NCBI GenBank assembly: GCA_002324875.1
Contig: NTJG01000013.1
Location: 1 to 64,000, forward strand
DNA from: Lysobacteraceae bacterium NML93-0793
GTDB taxonomy: Bacteria; Pseudomonadota; Gammaproteobacteria; Xanthomonadales; Xanthomonadaceae
Length of the DNA: 64,000 nucleotides
Reading direction: 5' to 3'
The first letter of the stretch is position 1, and each line of letters opens with the position of its first letter. Shown in pieces: positions 28,446-32,804 of this stretch. Both the position numbers and the translations under genes were made by a program. The notes beneath the pieces were generated by a model that was given only the letters and a program-made list of their open reading frames with translations, was not told where the DNA came from and searched no databases.

Positions 28446-29203
28446 GCGGACAGACCGGAAGAAGGCGACCAGATCTGGCCGCGGTGGGCTGCGCCTTCGG
28501 GCGCCAGCAGGGTGATGCAGGCCGCGGCCACATCGCCGGGATCACGCGCGATGCGGTCGTCCTCTTCCACGTGCGCGCGGGCGCGCAGCGACGTGCGCAT
28601 CGGCGGTGGCTGCAGGCCGCTCACCCGCACCGGCGAGCGCGACAGCTCTGCATGCAGCATCCGCACCAGCGCCTCGAGACCTGCCTGGGCCACTCCGTAG
28701 CCGCCCCAGTACGCACCCGAACTGCGGGCGCGATCGTCGATCGCGAACACCACCGCGCTGTCGTCGGCCCGGCGCAGCAAAGGCAGGCAGGCCTGGGTCA
28801 ACCACCAGCGCGCGGTGAGGTTGACGTGCAGCGCGCGTGCGAACGCGGCGGGGTCCGTGTGTTCGAGCGGCGTGAGCCCGGAGAAGTGCGCCGCCACATG
28901 CAGCACGCCGTCGAGCCGACCGAACGCCGCCTCGATGCGTGCGGCCAGATCGGCGTAATCGTCGGGCGACGCACCTTCCAGATCCAGCGGATACAACACC
29001 GGCGCGCCGCCGGCCGCCTGCAGCCGGTCGTGCAACCGGTTGAGCCGGGGCACCTTGCGGCCGAGCAGCACCGGCGTGGCGCCGGCCTGCACACAGGCCA
29101 ATGCGGCCGCTTCGCCGAGCCCTCCGTGCGCGCCGACCACCAGCACGACACGCCCGGCCAGCGGCCCTGCGGCCACCGGGGCTTCCGGCAGCGCCACGCT
29201 CAC
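28442..29203 (-). CDS. SDR-fold protein lacking the catalytic Ser and Lys
   Basis: A 253-residue short-chain dehydrogenase/reductase fold, most like the YciK group. The dinucleotide-binding loop is GAHGGLG (residues 24-30). In normal SDRs the triad is Ser-x12-Tyr-x3-Lys. Here Tyr169 is present, but the Lys position is Gln173 (YGVAQ) and the Ser position is Asp156 (AIDDR). The usual NNAG is also changed to HVAA. Classical hydride transfer is therefore doubtful, and a binding or structural role is possible. The start is GTG overlapping the glutaredoxin stop as GTGA. It is the middle gene of the operon. Confidence 0.82.
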   Translation of the reverse strand: MSVALPEAPVAAGPLAGRVVLVVGAHGGLGEAAALACVQAGATPVLLGRKVPRLNRLHDRLQAAGGAPVLYPLDLEGASPDDYADLAARIEAAFGRLDGVLHVAAHFSGLTPLEHTDPAAFARALHVNLTARWWLTQACLPLLRRADDSAVVFAIDDRARSSGAYWGGYGVAQAGLEALVRMLHAELSRSPVRVSGLQPPPMRTSLRARAHVEEDDRIARDPGDVAAACITLLAPEGAAHRGQIWSPSSGLSA

Positions 29204-29520
29204 GCCTGCAGCACCTCGGCCACCATGCGCGCGAGCTCGCCGGATTCGTGCAGCTCCAGCGTGATGTCGCAGCCGCCGATCAGTTCCCCATGGATGAACA
29301 GCTGCGGGAACGTCGGCCAGTTGGAGAAGCGCGGCAGGTTGGCGCGGATCTCCGGCTCCTCGAGCACGTTGATCGTGCGGTAGTCACGCGCACCTGCATC
29401 GTGAAGCGCCTGCACCGTACGGGCGGAGAATCCGCACATCGGAAACCGCGGGGTGCCCTTCAGGAACAGCACGACGGCATGGCCGTCGATTTCGGCCTGG
29501 ATGCGTTCGAGGATCGACAC
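29200..29520 (-). CDS. grxD: Monothiol glutaredoxin, Grx4/GrxD type
   Basis: A 106-residue monothiol glutaredoxin with active-site CGFS (RFPMCGFSARTVQ), which binds and transfers [2Fe-2S] clusters with glutathione. Other family blocks are present: VVLFLKGTP, WPTFPQLFIHGELIGGCDI. AGGAG at 29533-29529 fixes the start at GTG 29520 with 8-nt spacing; the GTG at 29529 overlaps that ribosome-binding site and cannot be used with it. It is the first gene of an operon with the SDR-fold and MarC genes and diverges from the SOD homologue. Confidence 0.95.
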   Translation of the reverse strand: MSILERIQAEIDGHAVVLFLKGTPRFPMCGFSARTVQALHDAGARDYRTINVLEEPEIRANLPRFSNWPTFPQLFIHGELIGGCDITLELHESGELARMVAEVLQA

Positions 29521-29575
29521 GGATACCACTCCTGCATGACCACCGCGCCGCAGCGGAGCCGGCGGGGGTCAGGGT

Positions 29576-29581
29576 TAGAAT
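29576..29581 (+). promoter_or_regulatory. Candidate -10 of the SOD-homologue gene
   Basis: TAGAAT lies 56 nt before the ATG in the 117-nt divergent region. No convincing -35 hexamer is seen. Confidence 0.35.
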
Positions 29582-29637
29582 CGCGACATTCTATCGCGTT
29601 GCCGCGACCGACAGCGGCGCACAGGACGTCTTCCCCA

Positions 29638-30222
29638 ATGCCTCTCGACCTGCCCGCCCTTCCCTACGACCGTACCGCACTCGAGCCGCACCTCTCCGGT
29701 GACACGCTCGACCATCATCACGGCCATCACCAGCGCGCGCTGATCGAGCGGGTGAATGCGCTGATCGCGGGTACCGAACTCGACGATGCGTCGCTCGACG
29801 TCATCGTGCGCAAGGCCCAGGGCGCGCTGTTCGACAACGCCGCGCAGGCCTGGGCCAACATCTTCTACTGGCACTCGCTGCGTCCGGCAGCCGCCGGCGG
29901 CAGCGCGCCGAAGGGCGCCCTGGCCGAGGCCGTGGCGCGCGATTTCGGCGACGTGGCCGCGCTGCGCCAGCGCTTCGATACGATCGCGCTGCGTCACTTC
30001 GGTGCAGGTTGGGTGTGGCTGGTGCAACGCGCCGACGGCCGCTTGGGAATCGTATCGACGGCCAACGCTGCCACCCCGGTCACGGGCGACGATACGCCCC
30101 TGCTGGCGGCCTCGATGTGGGAACACGCGGCGTATCCCGACTATCGGGAGAACCGGGCGCGCTACCTCGAGGCGTTCTGGCAACTGGTGAGCTGGGACAG
30201 CGTAGCGGCACGGCTGCGCTAG
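29638..30222 (+). CDS. Iron/manganese superoxide dismutase homologue with incomplete metal site
   Basis: A 194-residue protein with the full Fe/Mn SOD fold pattern: LPALPYDRTALEPHLSGDTL at the start, FDNAAQAW in the middle and WEHAAYPDY near the end. Two of the four first-shell ligands are missing. The usual His of WNHTFYW is Asn74 (WANIFYW), and the usual Asp of DVWEHAY is Ser159 (SMWEHAA). His27 and His163 remain. The gateway Tyr of GKHHQTY is Leu35. The reading frame is intact and the codons look normal, so this is not a broken gene but a divergent paralogue. Superoxide dismutation is doubtful; a scavenging, structural or different metal role is possible. ATG 29638 starts the conserved N-terminus. 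Confidence 0.85.
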   Translation: MPLDLPALPYDRTALEPHLSGDTLDHHHGHHQRALIERVNALIAGTELDDASLDVIVRKAQGALFDNAAQAWANIFYWHSLRPAAAGGSAPKGALAEAVARDFGDVAALRQRFDTIALRHFGAGWVWLVQRADGRLGIVSTANAATPVTGDDTPLLAASMWEHAAYPDYRENRARYLEAFWQLVSWDSVAARLR

Positions 30223-30274: not shown

Positions 30275-31534
30275 TCAACGACCGGGGGACACCGCTGCGA
30301 CGGATGCGAGAGCCGCCGCCACCACGTCCTCGGCCGCGGCGGGCCGACCGATCAGATAGCCCTGGATGTGATCGCAGCCCAGCGCGGACAGCTGCGCGAG
30401 CGATTCGGGCGTTTCCACGCCCTCGGCGACCACGCCGAGACCCAGATGGTGCGCGAGCTCGATCATGGTGCCCACCAGCCGCCGGGCGCGTGCATCGGTC
30501 GCCATTTCCTGGATGAAACTGCGGTCGATCTTGAGCGTGTCCACCGGCAGACGGTGCAGATAGGCCATCGACGAATAGCCGGTGCCGAAATCGTCGATCG
30601 CCACGCGCACGCCGCCGGCCCGCAATGCGGCGAGCAGCCGCTCGCACTGGCCCACGTCGCGCATCAGTGCGCTCTCGGTGACTTCCAGCATCAGGCCGTT
30701 CGGAGGCACGCACCACAGGCGCATCAGATCGAACACCTGATCGACGAAGCCCGGCAGTTGCAGCACCTCCACCGACAGATTGACGGCGAGCCGGACCTCC
30801 GGATCGACACGGCGCAGTTCGGCCAGATGGCGCAATCCCACGTTGAGAGTCCAACGCGTGAGGTCGACGATCTGGCCGCTGCGCTCGGCCACGCCGATGA
30901 ACAGCGCCGGTGGCACGGCGCCGAGCACCGGGTGTGTCCAGCGCGACAGGGCCTCGTAGCTGACGATGCGCCCGTCCGCCATGCGCTGGATGGGCTGGAG
31001 GTGCAACTGCAGCTGGTTGGCGGTGATCGCGGCGCGCAGGGCCGCCTGCACGGCCTCGAGCGGAATCGGAGGCGCACGCCAGAACGCCACGCGTTCGACG
31101 TTGACGGCGGCATCGTCGCAGGCGCGGTCCGCCCGCCGGCACAGCAGCTCGGGGGTATCGCCATCCTCCGGGCAGAGCGCGCCCCCCACGAGCACGAGCG
31201 GATGCACGTCCCCCGTCGCGGTCGAAACCGGCGCCTGCAGCGCACGCACGATTTTCGCTGCCGCCAGCGCCGCGTGGGCCCGGCCGTGCAGATGCGGCAA
31301 CAGCACCAGCAGGTCCGATTCGCCTGTGCGCACGAGCGTGTCGCCCGGGCGCAGTACGTCGCGCAGGCGCCGTTCGAGTTCGTGGGCCAGGGACTCGGCC
31401 ACTTCGTAGCCGAACGACAGCTCGATATCGCGCATGCGCTGGACCCGCACCAGCAGCACGGCCGCCGGCGCGTCGCCAGCCACCTGCGTGAGCAGACGCG
31501 CCAGCGCGTCGAAGGCCTGCGCCCGGTTCAGCAT
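30275..31534 (-). CDS. Degenerate GGDEF plus EAL c-di-GMP phosphodiesterase
   Basis: A 419-residue cytoplasmic protein. The N-terminal GGDEF-like half has SDLLV where GGDEF should be, so it should not make c-di-GMP. The C-terminal EAL domain looks active: YEALSRW, AVNLS, EVTESAL, DDFGTGYSS, LKIDRSF, EGVET and HIQGYLIG, covering the metal and catalytic residues. It should linearise c-di-GMP to pGpG. ATG 31534 lies 13 nt after the stop of the HD-GYP gene, giving an operon of two proteins from the two phosphodiesterase superfamilies. The target may be motility or pilus function. Confidence 0.9.
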   Translation of the reverse strand: MLNRAQAFDALARLLTQVAGDAPAAVLLVRVQRMRDIELSFGYEVAESLAHELERRLRDVLRPGDTLVRTGESDLLVLLPHLHGRAHAALAAAKIVRALQAPVSTATGDVHPLVLVGGALCPEDGDTPELLCRRADRACDDAAVNVERVAFWRAPPIPLEAVQAALRAAITANQLQLHLQPIQRMADGRIVSYEALSRWTHPVLGAVPPALFIGVAERSGQIVDLTRWTLNVGLRHLAELRRVDPEVRLAVNLSVEVLQLPGFVDQVFDLMRLWCVPPNGLMLEVTESALMRDVGQCERLLAALRAGGVRVAIDDFGTGYSSMAYLHRLPVDTLKIDRSFIQEMATDARARRLVGTMIELAHHLGLGVVAEGVETPESLAQLSALGCDHIQGYLIGRPAAAEDVVAAALASVAAVSPGR

Positions 31535-31547
31535 CGCGTGTCGCCGC

Positions 31548-32804
31548 TCACAGGAACAGCGCCACCGGATCGAGCCCGTGGGCGCCGGGCGGCAGCGGAG
31601 CGAGGATGCGCACCGGATCGTCGCTGTGCGCACGGACCATCAGATCGAGACTGTTGAACTGCTGCAGCACCCGCTTGTCCGGGGCGGTGAGCACCATTAC
31701 CCGCGGCTGCAGCCGGCGCGCGGCATTCTGCGCCATGACGATCGCGACCTCGCCCGTGCTCAATTCCACCAGCGAACCGATCGGGTACACGCTCATGCAT
31801 TGCATGAACTGCTCCACCACCTCGGAGGCATACCGGCTGCCGCGGTCCCGGTAGAGCATCTGCAGCGCCACGTGCTGACCGAGTGCGCGACGATGCGGCC
31901 GGTCGCTGGTCATCGCGTCGTAGGCGTCGACCACCGCGGCGATCCGGCCGAGCAGCGGGATCGCATCTCCGGACAGCCGCGCGGGATAGCCGGTGCCGTC
32001 GAGATGCTCGTGGTGCGTGCGCACCATGTCACGTACATGCCCGGGCACCGCGCCGCTCTCGTCCAGCAGCGCCAGCGCATGGCCCACATGGGCCTGCATG
32101 GCGCGCGCTTGCGCATCGTTGTAGGTCTCGGGCGTCGTGAGCAGGTCGGGATCCACACGCAACTTGCCGATATCGAGCAGCAGGGCGCCGCTCGCCAGGT
32201 CGATCAGCAAATGCTCGGGCAATCCGACGTGCCGTCCGAACGCGACCGCCAGCGCGCTGCAGCCGAGCGCATGGGCATATTCATGGCCGCCGCGGGCGCG
32301 CAGCGTGTCCAGCCACAGGAACGCATCGGCATTGCGTACCAGGCTGCGCACCATCGGCTCGACCGCCTCGCGCACGGCGTCGGGCGAAAGCGGGCGCCCG
32401 CTGCGGACGTCGTCGAGTACCCGGGCGGCGAACGCGGCCGCGCGCGCATGCGCCTCACGTGCGTCGGCGAGTTCCTCCTCGAACCCGACCTGCTCGGGGT
32501 ACCGGGTGGATCCCTGGAGGGCGCGGATGTCGGCGTCCTGAAGCGTGGCGGGCGAAGCCGCGGCCGGTGCGGGCCCATCGGCCCCATCGAGGGCCAGCAG
32601 GCCGAGCTCCAGCGGCCCGATACCACGTTCGAGGTCGATGTAAACGTAGGCGCACAGGCGCGCGAGCGTGTCGATGTCGTCCTGGGACTCGACCTGCACG
32701 CCCTGCAGCAGGAAGGGCGTGCCCTCCCAGTCGCGGTCGAGCCGACAGACATACATGCCTGTCCTCAGATCCGAGACCGCCAGCTTTCGTTCGTCCAGCG
32801 CCAT
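31548..32804 (-). CDS. DUF3391 plus HD-GYP domain protein with altered HD motif
   Basis: A 418-residue protein. The N-terminal DUF3391 (about 1-70; LAVSDLRTGMYVC) is joined to an HD-GYP domain (about 165-345). HD-GYP proteins hydrolyse c-di-GMP at a two- or three-metal site. HHEHLDGTGYP (264-274) and VVDAYDAM are present, but the eponymous HD is Leu210-Asp211 (LLLDIGK), so one metal-binding His is lost and activity is uncertain. The start ATG 32804 has GGA 7 nt upstream; a GTG seven codons earlier is possible. It is first in an operon with the EAL gene. Confidence 0.88.
   Translation of the reverse strand: MALDERKLAVSDLRTGMYVCRLDRDWEGTPFLLQGVQVESQDDIDTLARLCAYVYIDLERGIGPLELGLLALDGADGPAPAAASPATLQDADIRALQGSTRYPEQVGFEEELADAREAHARAAAFAARVLDDVRSGRPLSPDAVREAVEPMVRSLVRNADAFLWLDTLRARGGHEYAHALGCSALAVAFGRHVGLPEHLLIDLASGALLLDIGKLRVDPDLLTTPETYNDAQARAMQAHVGHALALLDESGAVPGHVRDMVRTHHEHLDGTGYPARLSGDAIPLLGRIAAVVDAYDAMTSDRPHRRALGQHVALQMLYRDRGSRYASEVVEQFMQCMSVYPIGSLVELSTGEVAIVMAQNAARRLQPRVMVLTAPDKRVLQQFNSLDLMVRAHSDDPVRILAPLPPGAHGLDPVALFL

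Follow-up and report, generated by a model that had tools for sequence, protein, structure and literature searches.

A SodB-like gene with two replaced metal ligands

The window, a 64,000-nucleotide stretch of contig NTJG01000013.1, contains a SodB-like gene on the forward strand at 29638..30222, which starts with an ATG at 29638, ends with a stop at 30220-30222 and encodes 194 aa with no internal stop. Its coordinates, strand and clean frame agree with the original prediction, which had read the product as a superoxide dismutase (SOD) homologue that has lost two of four metal ligands. The protein contains both SOD Pfam domains above cut-off (PF00081, 71.6 bits; PF02777, 108.7 bits) and its Fe-SOD fold is whole in structure prediction, placing it within the Fe/Mn-SOD fold family. 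Using phmmer, we found its top match to be the E. coli FeSOD (1isa), with 214 bits over residues 4-193. In this alignment, H27 and H163 fall on His ligands, H163 on the third, and the column of the second His ligand is occupied by N74, that of the Asp ligand by S159 and that of the gateway Tyr by L35. A multiple alignment gives the same assignments for the ligand and gateway columns. Both alignments, together with the relatives described below, bear out the predicted loss of two ligands, the replacement of the gateway Tyr by Leu and the persistence of His27 and His163, and they show that the Asn and Ser columns do correspond to ligand positions.

The His-His-Asp-His set of a Fe/Mn-SOD enzyme is thus broken, with N74 and S159 standing in, and the gateway Tyr is Leu35; the N-terminal water-coordinating Gln of the SodFM2 (FeSOD) subfamily is present as Q70. 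In the sections below, we use E. coli numbering (Met = 1), in which window Ser159 is 157 and window Glu162-His163 is 160-161. The relevant codons, all on the forward strand, can be compared with those of the 47 Luteimonas genes that lack both ligands (ligand-lost genes). His27 (29716..29718) is kept in 43/47 and Gln70 (29845..29847) in 46/47, Tyr is found in none of the 47 at Leu35 (29740..29742), and at Glu162-His163 (30121..30126) the His is present in 45/47 and the Glu in 32/47. The ligand His is replaced by Asn74 (AAC, 29857..29859) and the ligand Asp by Ser159 (TCG, 30112..30114). The protein scores 233.7 bits against the FeSOD equivalog NF007832, below the curated cut-off of 348, a miss that carries little weight because the canonical SodB of genus member G020 (298.2 bits) misses it too. 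The WANIFYW motif of the window protein is odd even within its own clade, where the closest relatives read WNNxFYW. Since the nearest relative's SodB, 91% identical and from a Luteimonas strain, has Asn and Ser at the same two ligand sites, and both ligands are gone in 47/49 SodBs of the genus, a lone sequencing slip is unlikely. On the reverse strand, at 30275-31633, lies a GGDEF-EAL protein gene whose GGDEF motif looks degenerate (TGESD) and whose EAL motifs look intact, as judged by eye.

Genomic neighborhood and ancestry

On the other side, the SodB-like gene diverges from grxD (29200..29529, reverse strand), a conserved neighbor that encodes a Grx4-type monothiol glutaredoxin, identified by TIGR00365 (135.3 bits, cut-off 117.1) and by synteny. 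The intergenic region between the two genes (29530..29637) contains a perfect dyad, TAGAAT-N6-ATTCTA, at 29576-29593, which is the sole match within the window (shuffles, mean 0.00). Because the spacing of the dyad is not constant among relatives, it may be a pair of -10 elements that face each other and not an operator. In the relatives L046, L049, L031 and L043, the gap upstream of the sodB-like gene is down to 67-70 bp and a TATTGTA element lies directly before the ATG, so that the sodB-like transcript could be leaderless in these four.

Divergent grxD adjoins sodB in 227 of the 229 SodB loci that we read across the genus and the family (47/47 ligand-lost, 1/2 canonical genus members and 179/180 others), and the two loci without it are at contig ends, with 209 and 3 bases upstream. 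This shared neighborhood indicates that the window gene is the vertically inherited sodB and not an extra copy. E. coli sodB neighbors grxD as well. The window genome encodes one other Fe/Mn-SOD, a SodA-type MnSOD (L001) that belongs to the same superfamily and differs from the window protein in its canonical ligands, in Gly at position 70 and in sharing only 37% identity with it; two Cu/Zn-SOD family matches are also present. Therefore, of the "maintained paralogue" that had been proposed, the maintenance holds (see the selection analysis) and the paralogy does not, since the gene is the positional orthologue of sodB by its grxD neighborhood and the SodA-type MnSOD is a separate protein. From the named relatives (the Luteimonas strain at 91%, L. 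deserti at 76%), we infer that the window probably belongs to the genus Luteimonas.

Distribution of ligand loss

We sampled 52 genomes of the genus, in 49 of which SodB is readable. Of these 49, 47 have neither the Asp ligand nor the second His ligand. In the 47 genes, the His is replaced by Asn (15), Thr (12), Leu (7), Asp (5), Glu (5), Gln (1), Cys (1) or Ile (1), and the Asp by Ser (25), Cys (19), Asn (1), Pro (1) or Ala (1). The SodBs of the genus diverge down to 44% identity with that of the window. The two canonical SodBs are those of G020 and G038. G038 is doubtfully placed in the genus, as its assembly is fragmentary (88% complete, ~570 contigs), its SodB clusters outside the genus and SodA was not detected in it. 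G020, with SodA present and SodB canonical, is a real exception inside the genus. A usable sodB is missing from 3/52 genomes (G002, G034 and G043), and the copies of G030 and G041 are badly eroded (genes L057 and L060, whose residue states shift with the alignment used); the SodB-like role is thus dispensable in places. In one Luteimonas subclade (L052-L056, L058 and L059), Asp or Glu replaces the His, Cys replaces the Asp and Pro replaces Glu160, and these residues make a His-Asp/Glu-Cys-His set possible.

In the wider family, we read 189 SodB loci in 198 genomes, the remainder comprising G132, G177, G179 and G228, which have a SodB match, and G080, G097, G158, G188 and G237, which have none or a fragment. 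One genome outside the genus, G191 (L092), has also lost the ligands and carries Q27, L74 and N157. Its seven other sampled congeners are canonical, so this is a separate event, and ligand loss has happened at least twice in the family, in Luteimonas and in G191. In 26 genomes of six more genera (g2, g7, g11, g18, g19 and g53), the ligands are kept and Tyr35 or Gln70 is altered; among them, the Cys31 and Glu35 pair occurs in 6/8 genomes of g18, which we infer to be Xanthomonas. L099 (G069) and L098 (G103) keep the ligands, have both Tyr35 and Gln70 replaced (L/E and C/T) and sit on long branches.

Beyond the family, a DNA-pattern search for ligand-lost SodB genes in 369 class-level and 398 phylum-level genomes (partly shared) gave two matches, neither of them a SOD: the match in L325 lies inside a 368-aa membrane-protein-like ORF, and the ORFs of at least 120 aa in L324 include no SOD. 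The search is a weak negative, because the pattern recovers just 20/48 known ligand-lost genes (and 0/181 others) and misses the window gene itself.

The 47 ligand-lost genes form a single clade in the SodB tree (100/98). In a gyrB tree, built from sequences picked by tblastn, canonical G020 falls within the genus beside G003 and G023 (99/73), and the gyrB data reject a clade of the genus minus G020 (p-AU 0.008) and do not reject the genus plus G020 (p 0.67). The grxD+SDR tree also joins G020 with G003/G023 (99/86), with the genus minus G020 not rejected (p 0.49). Using the SodB data, with three long rows left out, the grouping of G020 with G003 and G023 is weakly rejected (p 0.038) and the genus with G020 is not (p 0.17). 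This conflict could stem from fast evolution of the ligand-lost genes or from a transfer into G020. Since the trees disagree over G020, one loss or several inside Luteimonas are both possible.

Ligand loss occurs in genomes that carry SodA

We called a SodA-type MnSOD at E <= 1e-85, a threshold that falls in the gap between 7e-87 and 1e-67. By this measure, SodA is present in 50/52 genomes of the genus, among them all 47 with a ligand-lost SodB. In the family sample, canonical residues are found in every one of the 134 fully read SodBs from genomes with no close SodA, and also in the readable part of a partial 135th. The 54 SodBs from genomes with SodA comprise 18 canonical, 26 with altered Tyr35 or Gln70, and 10 ligand-lost. 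SodB is canonical, too, in eight genomes that count as SodA-lacking but encode a second, more distant SOD of the Mn type (E 1e-58 to 1e-67). All 36 altered genes, however, come from a single clade of 48 that bears SodA, the 6 genomes that make up the two other groups with SodA being canonical, and an independent-pairs test has no power here; the association is therefore a pattern rather than a test. It fits a relaxation of SodB that followed a takeover by SodA, short of independent proof.

Selection on the ligand-lost genes

The reading of the gene as maintained is upheld by codon analysis. The frame is open in 47/47 ligand-lost genes and spans 190-212 codons. In pairwise codon models of 21 close ligand-lost pairs, omega is 0.026-0.148 in 20 and one pair is dS-saturated, and omega = 1 is rejected in 21/21 with likelihood ratios of 59-211. 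The window gene paired with that of G044 gives an omega of 0.059 (dS 0.78, likelihood ratio 111 against omega = 1). For comparison, omega is 0.028-0.157 in nine canonical pairs, 0.047-0.227 in six other altered SodB pairs and 0.005-0.039 for gyrB of the ligand-lost pairs. SodB evolves faster than SodA, as seen between G000 and G049, which share 49% identity in SodB and 89% in SodA.

We then compared constraint column by column. Among the 135 SodBs of SodA-lacking family members, there is no substitution at positions 27, 31, 35, 70, 74, 157, 160, 161, 163 and 164, one partial gene being gapped at 27, 31 and 35. A larger canonical set of 154 was picked by its active-site letters and shows no change at 27, 35, 70, 74, 157, 160 and 161 by construction, so the claim of invariance rests on the 135 genomes, which were chosen without regard to these residues. 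On the tree of ligand-lost genes (n = 47), we counted 9, 8 and 8 changes at columns 74, 157 and 35, close to the 7 of the median column, compared with one at Q70, two at H161 and four at H27. With eroded G030 and G041 set aside, Q70 and H161 are each retained in 45/45 genes and H27 in 43/45, and position 157 is Ser in 25, Cys in 19 and Asn in 1 (Ser/Cys in 44/45). At set thresholds, 30 columns are relaxed, 45 still conserved, 1 shifted and 2 newly conserved; with the SodA-lacking set as reference, 34 are relaxed, 2 shifted and 1 newly conserved. With few exceptions, the positions conserved here were thus conserved ancestrally as well, which favors a function inherited from canonical SodB. The SodA read here has Gly at position 70, indicating that the SOD fold itself needs no Gln there. 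As Q70 is kept nonetheless, the pocket may still be in use, or the residue may serve packing, and the retention of H27, Q70, H161 and Ser/Cys157 would likewise be compatible with a pocket function.

A probable SodB pseudoenzyme kept for another role

Judged by its residues, the window protein has very probably lost SOD chemistry, and we are fairly sure that it is dead as a SOD. Our preferred explanation, to which we give a probability of roughly 60%, is that the original sodB of the genus turned into a pseudoenzyme and was kept for a non-dismutase job after SodA took over. SodA would have assumed cytosolic dismutation, selection on the metal site of SodB would then have lapsed, and the SodB protein would have been retained for its other job. 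This job would most likely be a binding or structural one that ordinary SodB already had. Candidates are the binding of a protein partner, which we propose tentatively and at somewhat less than even odds, and the binding of a small ligand in the former metal pocket (His27, Gln70, His161 and Ser/Cys157). The kept Gln70, His161 and Ser/Cys157 could also serve a reaction in the pocket rather than simple binding. The roles first suggested, metal scavenging, moonlighting and a non-superoxide reaction, are all candidates. Counting against our explanation are the single clade behind the SodA association, the canonical SodBs of 18 sampled SodA-bearing genomes, of G020 within the genus and of the eight genomes with a distant Mn-type SOD, and the missing or eroded copies in five Luteimonas genomes.

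The alternative that stays closest to these residues is a re-engineered, active protein, in which His27, Gln70, His161 and the Ser/Cys form a new catalytic or sensing site based on a different metal, on a bound ligand or on a nucleophile. The SOD fold would then be repurposed across the genus, its pocket under selection of its own for a non-superoxide binding or reaction. The near-fixity of Q70, H161 and H27 and the restriction of position 157 speak for such a site, as do the rarity of changes in Q70 and H161 over the tree of 47 and the persistence of H161 in the 13/45 genes where Glu160 has become Pro or Gln. Q70 changes five times in the shorter tree of the 26 ligand-keeping altered SodBs, a group partly picked for a changed Q70. 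However, the residue at positions 74 and 35 drifts among many types, so that no shared four-ligand site is visible and one shared new metal site seems improbable. Moreover, H27 and H161 are perhaps kept for packing, and almost no column is newly conserved. We therefore regard a repurposed pocket as doubtful, although it deserves serious consideration. If true, it would be a new functional class in the Fe/Mn-SOD family, born once SodA had made SodB redundant.

Slow decay of a redundant SodB on its way out, with the conservation reflecting demands of folding that persist for the time being, would account for the absent or unusable sodB of G002, G034 and G043, for the strong erosion in G030 and G041, and for the faster divergence of SodB than of SodA. 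It would also suit the higher omega values of certain pairs (0.094-0.105 in three Pro160 pairs, 0.119 in G004/G048 and 0.148 in G003/G023). We consider it unlikely, given that every ligand-lost frame is open despite identity down to 44% and that neutrality is rejected in every pair. Glu160 is part of the Glu-His dimer bridge of SODs, and its replacement in 13/45 genes argues against a protein that still dismutates, whether via two His plus Asn/Ser or in a mixed dimer with SodA. An E. coli SodA-SodB hybrid exists. SOD heterodimers are also described for S. aureus SodM with SodA (PMC13008324), and the predicted fold is whole. In contrast, ligands His74 and Asp157 are invariant in 135/135 SodBs of SodA-lacking family members, the replacements differ between clades, and a 2023 survey terms all four Fe/Mn-SOD metal ligands universally conserved (PMC10172142). 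Residual dismutation thus appears highly improbable, and we return to the pseudoenzyme as the best account of the locus.

Comparison with known systems

The window protein resembles E. coli SodB (SodFM2/FeSOD, 1isa) in fold, in length, in the N-terminal Gln70 and in 48% identity in a structural alignment, and it differs in the replacement of two of four ligands and of the gateway Tyr. Canonical SodBs, those with an altered second shell and those without ligands make up a natural series for probing roles of SODs besides dismutation, and the label "superoxide dismutase [Fe]" can mislead in this part of the family. SOD-like proteins exist in mitochondrial ribosomes. Gln70 is the water-coordinating residue that defines the SodFM2 subfamily in PMC10172142, and nearly the whole genus breaks the universal-ligand rule given there, yet the gene is under strong selection.

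The closest precedent is the Xanthomonas FeSOD XAC2677. In X. citri, deletion of the MnSOD gene is reported to have been impossible, and the authors argue that the FeSOD, in which His31 is changed to Cys and Tyr35 to Glu with the primary ligands kept, lacks activity (PMC6322740). XAC2677 and the window protein share the family, an altered active site and a MnSOD alongside, undeletable in X. citri; unlike XAC2677, the window protein has H31 and L35 in place of the Cys31/Glu35 pair and has lost primary ligands. The altered FeSOD feature is called Xanthomonas-specific in that paper, whereas we found changes at Tyr35 or Gln70 in six genera outside that of the window, one of them with Cys31/Glu35. 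Beyond this related report, we recognized no ligand-less bacterial Fe/Mn-SOD lineage in our searches of the open-licence literature. The Fe-SOD fold also serves as a subunit of the plastid RNA polymerase in PAP4/PAP9 (FSD3/FSD2; PDB entries); these proteins are eukaryotic and sit in a partner complex. Thus, what is already known is an argued-inactive FeSOD in Xanthomonas and SOD-fold subunits in PAP4/PAP9, and what is new here is the near-genus-wide loss of primary ligands.
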